From positions 1 to 64,000 of the forward strand of contig NZ_JRGL01000121.1 in assembly GCF_000764655.1 (NCBI RefSeq): DNA of 64,000 nt, in the 5' to 3' direction. The DNA comes from Aeromonas aquatica (GTDB taxonomy: Bacteria > Pseudomonadota > Gammaproteobacteria > Enterobacterales > Aeromonadaceae). Below, in pieces: positions 34,355-35,291 of this stretch. Made by a program: the position numbers and the translations under genes. The notes beneath the pieces were generated by a model. It had not been told where the DNA came from. It saw only the letters and a list, made by a program, of their open reading frames with translations, and did not search any database. Positions within the stretch are counted from its first letter, which is position 1, and each line of letters starts with the position of its first letter.

Positions 34355-35209
34355 ATGGGAACTTCATTGCAGCGCACTATGGCTCTGATTCCGCAAGGTA
34401 GTCTGGAAGGCTATATCCAGGCAGTTAACTCGATTCCTGTGCTGAGCGCAGAGGAAGAGCGTGAACTGGCGACGCGCTTGCAGCAGGGTGGCGATCTCGA
34501 GGCTGCCCGTCAGCTGGTCATGTCACATCTGCGTTTTGTCGTTCACGTGGCCAAAAGCTACGCCGGTTATGGCCTGCCTCAGGCCGATCTGGTGCAGGAA
34601 GGCAATATCGGTCTGATGAAGGCGGTCAAGCGCTTCGACCCGAGCGTCGGGGTACGGCTGGTCTCCTTCGCAGTGCACTGGATCAAGGCCGAGATCCACG
34701 AATATGTCCTGCGCAACTGGCGCATGGTCAAGGTGGCGACTACCAAGGCGCAGCGCAAGCTGTTCTTCAACCTGCGTAAATCCAAGAAGCGTCTGGGCTG
34801 GTTCAGCCACGACGAGGTGCAGGCCGTGGCCGCCGAGCTGGGGGTCTCCCCGACCGATGTGACCGAGATGGAAGCACGGATGAGCAACTACGATCAGGCC
34901 TTCGACCTGGTCGGTGATGATGAAGATGAAGGTGGCTTCGCCCCGGTTCATTATCTGGAAGACAAGTCCTCGGATCTCGCTGCCACCATAGAGAGCGACA
35001 ACTGGGACAACCACGCCACCCGTCGTCTGAGTGCGGCCCTGGCCACCCTGGACGAGCGCAGCCAGCACATCATCCGCGCCCGCTGGCTGGATGAGGAGAG
35101 CAAGACCACCTTGCAGGAGCTGGCCGATACTTACGGTGTCTCCGCCGAACGCGTGCGTCAGCTCGAGAAAAATGCTCTCAAGAAGTTGAAGGATGCGATG
35201 GACGCCTGA
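34355..35209 (+). CDS. rpoH: RNA polymerase heat-shock sigma factor RpoH (sigma-32)
   Basis: 284 residues. Region 2 holds [20 protein letters not shown] and [15 protein letters not shown]. The RpoH box [13 protein letters not shown] distinguishes it from sigma-70/RpoS. Region 4 has [20 protein letters not shown] and the [18 protein letters not shown]. It directs RNA polymerase to heat-shock genes. The final 74 bp, including the stop, are followed at once by a second, diverged copy of themselves. The ~160-bp leader without a gene could hold the usual RpoH mRNA thermosensor contacts. Confidence 0.95.
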
Positions 35210-35291
35210 GGGCATTCGCCGAACGCGTGCGTCAGCTTGAGAAGAACGCACTCAAGAAGCTGAAAGACGCCATGGATGCCTGAGGGCATTC
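35144..35291 (+). repeat. Tandem duplicate of the rpoH 3' end (2 x 74 bp)
   Basis: 35144-35217 is the end of rpoH and 35218-35291 repeats it without a gap, including the stop and the GAGGGCATTC after it. The copies differ at nine sites, all synonymous in the rpoH frame, so both encode the same C-terminus [20 protein letters not shown] plus a last Ala. Confidence 0.92.

Follow-up and report, generated by a model that had tools for sequence, protein, structure and literature searches.

The window, a stretch of 64,000 nucleotides from the genome of Aeromonas aquatica (NZ_JRGL01000121.1, positions 1 to 64,000), contained an rpoH gene whose end was present twice (Table 1). The gene encoded a product of 284 amino acids with sigma-70 regions 1.2, 2 and 4 (Pfam). 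A repeat search detected two abutting copies of 74 nucleotides at a spacing of 74, the first translated (unit 1) and the second untranslated (unit 2), and 65 of their 74 bases (88%) were identical. Tandem Repeats Finder (TRF) reported the repeat at 35143-35291 with a period of 74 and a score of 235. The abutting 74-bp copies that an earlier note had placed at 35144-35291 were real and corresponded to this repeat moved by one base, a shift that is harmless because positions 35143, 35217 and 35291 are all C.

Table 1. Features of the doubled gene ends in the window.
Feature	Position	Strand	Basis or remark
rpoH coding sequence	34355..35209	+	ORF list, Pfam; last 64 coding bases and stop codon within unit 1
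Unit 1, translated rpoH end, stop at 35207-35209, then 7 bases	35143..35216	+	Repeat search, TRF, AAGGATGCGATG end
Unit 2, untranslated second rpoH end of local type	35217..35290	+	73/74 identical to the G011 end
Predicted hairpin GGATGCC-TGAG-GGCATTC with the old stop (35281-35283) in its loop, retained in unit 2	35274..35291	+	
Terminator-like hairpin and T run 3' of unit 2	35304..35326	+	Conserved in the genus alignment
rsmD, doubled end of the same class, separate from the rpoH locus	29634..30263	-	
Relic of the ancestral rsmD end, after a hairpin at 29594-29624	29514..29576	-	
T2SSF-family gene (MshG/GspF-like), doubled end	56890..58110	+	Pfam
67-base tandem array of 2.3 units at the end of the T2SSF-family gene	58077..58228	+	Repeat search, TRF

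The units were identical over their first 21 and last 13 bases. Over 67 aligned coding bases they differed at nine, and the claim of the earlier note that all nine differences were synonymous in the rpoH frame was borne out, with no non-synonymous change. The synonymous fraction expected for random changes in the unit was 0.21. Nine of nine would arise with a chance of ~8e-7 if all change were random, and of ~8e-5 if the untranslated copy drifted while the translated one changed only synonymously, the latter figure being based on a synonymous fraction of 0.35 that was our own estimate. This suggested that the units trace back to ends that diverged while translated, and that unit 2 is recent, has been renewed or is constrained.

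The rpoH gene was found, and its end was read, in all 37 genomes of a sample that held one genome per Aeromonas species, with the genome of the window as G000. A second rpoH end was present in six of them (G000, G032, G018, G022, G023, and G007). In all six carriers, the second copy started 7 bases past the rpoH stop and at the same codon position, and the translated end carried AAGGATGCGATG, which occurred in none of the other 31 genomes. The junction was spread over about four lineages. In a FastTree phylogeny of the rpoB region (36 genomes; G030 was without the gene there), five carriers and four non-carriers formed a nine-species clade (support 0.977), and G007 was placed outside it as the sister of G014. 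The single-copy strain G011 was the sister of G000 in both the rpoB-region and the rpoH trees (1.0 and 0.98). The tree of the neighbouring genes instead paired G000 with G009 (0.72) and G011 with G032 (0.97), and this altered pairing was a sign of recombination.

The second copies had changed to different degrees. The number of changes absent from all 37 active ends was 0 in G000, 1 in G018, 2 in G032, and 8 in G007; G022 and G023 had lost 16 bases, and changes at bases 6 and 11 were common to the copies of G007 and G032. Free drift in relatives, which the earlier note had held to speak against its own explanation, was thus seen in part, in the private changes or deletions of the second copies of G032, G022, G023, and G007. 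Upstream of rpoH, a short tandem repeat (ATGTTTGACTT) at 34252-34262 was observed in 7 of the 37 genomes (five carriers, G011, and G017), with one base changed in G018; it is a marker of the relatedness of these genomes. A search with the pattern RVRQLEKNA matched 136 of 394 genomes of the order and 33 of 369 genomes of the class, and two copies were found only in G000, which is weak evidence of absence since copies that are no longer intact escape the search (G022 and G023, both carriers, gave one each). Among the titles and abstract openings surveyed, we recognised no report of a doubled rpoH or of doubled gene ends in Aeromonas.

Unit 2 was of the local type. It differed from the rpoH end of G011 at 1 of 74 bases and was identical to it over bases 22-74, and the translated end of G000 differed from the same G011 end at 10 of 74. 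Along the gene, G000 and G011 showed 28 differences in the first 809 sites and 9 in the last 46 (p=7e-5). The check proposed in the earlier note thus gave largely the expected outcome: one copy matched the local lineage and the translated end did not, with divergence rising sharply at the end of rpoH. No donor of the translated end was found; the nearest active end over bases 22-67 was that of G032 with 4 differences. In GTDB r220, where our pattern search may omit records close to the window, the active-end pattern was found only in four Aeromonas carriers and in one MAG, where it did not lie in rpoH.

Over bases 22-74, unit 2 had the same sequence in G000 and G018 and matched the active end of G011, even though G000 and G018 differed at 38 of 128 four-fold sites of rpoH. 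Plain vertical decay is therefore insufficient, and renewal, exchange or constraint must be invoked. A variant common to the first bases of the two units was seen within G000 (GAA), within G032 (CGCA), and within G022/G023 (T at base 10). These variants were absent from the nearest relatives and were present in other Aeromonas.

Downstream of the gene, the similarity of G000 to its relatives switched. In windows of 150 bases, G000 was 95-98% identical to G011 over 35304-36053, whereas over 36054-38603 it was 93-100% identical to G022/G023, which belong to the A. media/rivipollensis group, and 79-94% identical to G011. This indicated that DNA of the media/rivipollensis group was imported ~0.75 kb downstream of rpoH. 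Recombination between species is reported in the A. media group (PMC5394120). All three genomes of the media/rivipollensis group in the sample carried the rpoH duplication. The active rpoH end of G000 was not of the type of this group, with 6 differences over bases 22-74. The imported tract spanned GntR/HutC-like and imidazolonepropionase-like ORFs, identified by eye from their translations.

The rpoH stop codon of most single-copy species can sit in the loop of a short hairpin, the arms of which change together (GGAAGC/GCTTCC, GGAGGC/GCCTCC, and GGATGCC/GGCATTC) and move their register by one base between clades. For 23 distinct single-copy ends, matched arms gave -8.2 kcal/mol and arms swapped between species gave -5.8 kcal/mol (0/10000 permutations); 3 of 45 ORFs in the window reached -8.2. 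The median stability was -8.4 kcal/mol for 31 single-copy ends, -9.3 for the six second copies, and -5.25 for the six active carrier ends (single vs. active, p=0.004; second vs. active, p=0.012; single vs. second, p=0.36), with p-values that are optimistic as related species were counted as independent. Eight of the 31 single-copy ends lay at -6.0 or weaker and overlapped the active carrier ends. RNAalifold, applied to 36 of the 37 ends (G005 was left out), returned the terminator only and no stop-codon hairpin, and a comparison of 35000-35450 with Rfam, at E up to 0.1, was negative. We read the carriers as showing a division of labour, in which unit 1 would serve as the protein end and unit 2 as a predicted hairpin beside the terminator.

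Doubled ends were also surveyed at other genes by comparing the ends of mechanically called ORFs with the downstream DNA. In the window and 36 neighbourhoods, 18 of 590 ORFs were flagged, comprising 3 rpoH, 10 rsmD, and 5 others. Within the window, rpoH, rsmD, and the T2SSF-family gene qualified among 56 ORFs; a match at 59934-60335 was set aside because it resembled the start of a pilin that is repeated. In 400 kb of G023, 9 of 328 ORFs, equal to eight loci, had a downstream copy of their end: recG, yihY, panC, a phnR-like regulator, a glutamine-type permease, a pmbA-like gene (the last three names lie below family cut-offs), two ORFs without a family, and one ORF antisense to the yihY array. 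The yihY/BrkB-family gene (L202:7079-7975, minus strand) was followed by two more copies of its end, the nearer 97% and the farther 87% identical, 13 of the 14 differences of the latter being synonymous. An intergenic array at L192:10904-11641 of the same genome comprised 3.7 units of 196 bases, and every unit had a terminator-like stem. In A. caviae, 2 of 116 ORFs had a doubled end.

The controls gave 0/341 in G428, 2/137 in Klebsiella pneumoniae, 0/162 in G169, and 0/29 in G635, at GC contents of 46.7-72.1% against 62-63% in the surveyed DNA. Both K. pneumoniae ORFs were absent from the annotation of the record, and one 17-base match in G428 fell below the 24-base filter. With the window excluded, the two further Aeromonas samples had 11/444 and the four other genomes 2/669 (p=0.0012, or p=0.0047 when the yihY array was counted once), and the named genes of G023 compared with G428 gave 6/328 vs. 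0/341 (p=0.014). On the 5' side, doublings were found in 6/317 ORFs of G023, 1/56 of the window, 1/114 of A. caviae, and 1/648 of the controls, and some arrays occurred on both sides. Blocks from the middle of genes were doubled in 0/137 cases in G023, 0/18 in the window, and 0/134 in G428, indicating that doubling is a property of gene boundaries. Doubled gene boundaries are frequent in the Aeromonas DNA sampled.

The proportion of synonymous differences between the active end and the last copy varied among these loci: 9/9 in rpoH, 11/13 in recG, 13/14 in yihY, 8/11 in panC, 5/8 in the T2SSF-family gene (45 aligned bases), 6/15 in the phnR-like gene, 4/10 in the pmbA-like gene, 1/4 in the permease gene, and 15/34 in rsmD. 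Exchange between translated ends and plain drift thus both seem to occur.

A new rsmD end followed by a hairpin and an ancestral relic was present in 15 of the 31 genomes in which the end was read, and in G007, G026, G036, and G032 the structure was in repeated units. In most of the remaining genomes, the rsmD end ran into the start of the following gene; the doubling thus sets apart two genes that otherwise overlap. The MshG/GspF-like T2SSF-family gene of the window was not alone, as an ORF of 406 amino acids in A. caviae (L295, 46368-47588) showed a similar match. The window contained two further repeats, a 130-base tandem array of 2.7 units at 13644-13994 (TRF) and a 36-base coding repeat of ~13 units at 30657-31183; the latter lies in the N-terminal part of ORF 30375-32186, which we take to be ftsY from its sequence and position.

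The distance between the recG stop and the next start was 19-31 bases in 7 of 30 genomes, 56-74 in 6, 142-170 in 10, 252-282 in 6, and 365 in 1. The gaps rose by ~112 bases, with values near 31, 143, 254, and 365; in G000 and G009 the gap ended at a start codon that lies within the duplicated segment (doubled start). Where two extra units were present, in six genomes, the first of them resembled the genome's own active end, and for longer arrays the unit comparison covers first extra units. The single relic in G013, G033, and G034 kept the end of the one-copy strains G018, G028, and G001.

With slightly more confidence than doubt, we regard the rpoH end as an older tandem duplication of two units at a gene boundary, reshuffled by recombination and collapse. 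This reading is based on the recurrence of the junction together with the carrier-specific active end, on the changes shared by the second copies of G007 and G032, and on the second copy of G000, which over bases 22-74 is the same as the G011 end, in contrast to the active end. It also draws on the first-base variants shared between units within genomes, the doubled ends at other genes, the stepwise recG gaps, and the imported tract downstream. From sequence comparison, a doubled structure that is older than the split of the carriers, or was passed between them, would fit these observations. How the duplication arose, in which order exchange and collapse took place, and any function of unit 2 are inferences. 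The 74-base end may have been duplicated once, and the doubled allele would have descended or been exchanged among Aeromonas species. Unit 1 would then have mutated, held synonymous by selection on the protein, while neighbouring units may have exchanged sequence with each other and recombined with the single-unit alleles of relatives. Some lineages would have collapsed to one unit, in which case the rpoH gene of G011 would be an ordinary single copy with the old unit 2 retained. Unit 2 may still provide the hairpin and terminator of the mRNA, probably releasing the end of unit 1 from the hairpin. The scattered placement of the carriers in the rpoB-region tree calls for transfer or for several losses. 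Against this reading, 4 of the 9 doubled ends tested had no strong synonymous excess, as plain drift would give, and no donor or intermediate was found; the sample comprised one genome per species.

The earlier note had proposed instead that one recombination event in this lineage joined two diverged rpoH alleles and left the native end behind. Such an event would combine homology on the left with an illegitimate join on the right, the pattern of homology-facilitated illegitimate recombination. A local second copy, a divergent active end with a sharp change, nine differences that are all synonymous, and an import from another species nearby speak for it. It would not, however, put the same junction and type of active end into five further genomes or the same variants into the first bases of both units, and no donor was found; we consider it rather unlikely. 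The mixing of lineages at the rpoH end is nevertheless supported by the sequence comparisons, and this part of the proposal stands, but a one-off private join in the G000 lineage is most likely wrong, with 6 of 37 genomes sharing the junction.

Another explanation is that unit 2 is kept by selection as a hairpin of the 3' untranslated region, so that its low divergence reflects constraint and not recent exchange. The covariation of the arms among the 23 distinct single-copy ends and the greater stability of the relics than of the active ends (p=0.012) argue for it. However, RNAalifold missed the hairpin on 36 ends, 8 of the 31 single-copy ends overlapped the active ends in stability, the statistics ignored the kinship of the species, and G000 and G018 are also identical over bases 22-56, a stretch that is not part of the hairpin. 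As the account of the low divergence, this seems improbable.

Separate tandem duplications that struck one site in every lineage, by slippage at the hairpin, would explain a unit boundary that falls at the hairpin base and local variants common to the first bases of the units. The active ends of the six carriers have three synonymous changes in common, and this and the shared changes of the G007 and G032 relics point to a common origin instead; almost no microhomology was seen at the junction, which like the duplication mechanism was judged by eye only. We therefore hold this to be very unlikely.

Phage 21 and e14 are known to replace the end of icd. A scar of an integrative element that brought a substitute rpoH end and then lost its interior would likewise leave an intact gene with a synonymously different end and the old end downstream. 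No element or remnant lay between the units in any of the six carriers, where 7 bases separate the stop from the second copy, and doubled ends occurred at several unrelated genes. In the phage collection, 108 records matched the rpoH end, from Salmonella (105), Bordetella (2), and Pseudomonas (1), with no Aeromonas phage. Five IMG/VR records matched the end motif and none translated as rpoH; among eight matches in the plasmid collection, the sole Aeromonas one was a chromosome-like A. caviae record of 4.94 Mb. In these collections, which are incomplete, no element with an rpoH end was seen, and such a scar is highly improbable. Two plasmid-labelled records of 4.9 and 5.4 Mb (L295-L297, NZ_AP026896.1; L298-L300, CP125156.1) looked like misfiled chromosomes. 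An assembly artefact or a mixed culture, conceivable for a draft of 171 contigs, has a negligible probability and was set aside as refuted, since the identical junction recurred in five further assemblies, including that of G023 on a single contig of 4,552,582 bases, and the contamination of the window's assembly was 0.04.

Beyond the older duplication that we prefer for rpoH, a broader reading can be put forward tentatively, and we think it on the whole doubtful: a genus-wide tendency to doubling may separate overlapping information, the old ends staying as working 3' untranslated or 5' elements and being passed between species by recombination. Under this reading, the coding end of rpoH in unit 1 would have been split from the covarying stop-codon hairpin in unit 2, and the ends of rsmD and the amino-acid permease gene from the start of the next gene. 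If a full survey agrees, one genus would repeatedly double its gene ends, exchange them between species, and divide coding and regulatory roles between the copies. The carriers would then be natural experiments on a stop-codon hairpin placed 74 bases from the stop in use. A patch of synonymous changes at a gene end can reflect the exchange of units and not codon selection, and should be read with this in mind.

Among known systems, the doubled ends resemble the minisatellites or VNTRs of bacteria in their head-to-tail units of tens of bases. At rpoH, the two units abut, and their number is one or two across the 37 genomes; at recG, the unit number varies between species. They differ from minisatellites in that the units span a gene boundary, with the first translated, and in that rpoH has only two units, which differ mainly at synonymous sites. 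Homology-facilitated illegitimate recombination, as described in the accessible text of PMC3240628, likewise gives a gene whose end comes from another lineage and whose native end persists beside it. There the junction would be private to the descendant lineage, whereas the rpoH junction was common to 6 of 37 genomes, each of a different species, with no donor found. The mosaic alleles of Aeromonas involve recombination in the A. media group, and such a tract adjoins the rpoH locus, but rpoH and tandem repeats have no occurrence in the accessible text of that study (PMC5394120). The rpoH locus shares with the icd gene altered by phage 21 or e14 an intact gene with a changed end and the old end downstream; it differs in that no element was seen at rpoH and in that many genes are targets.
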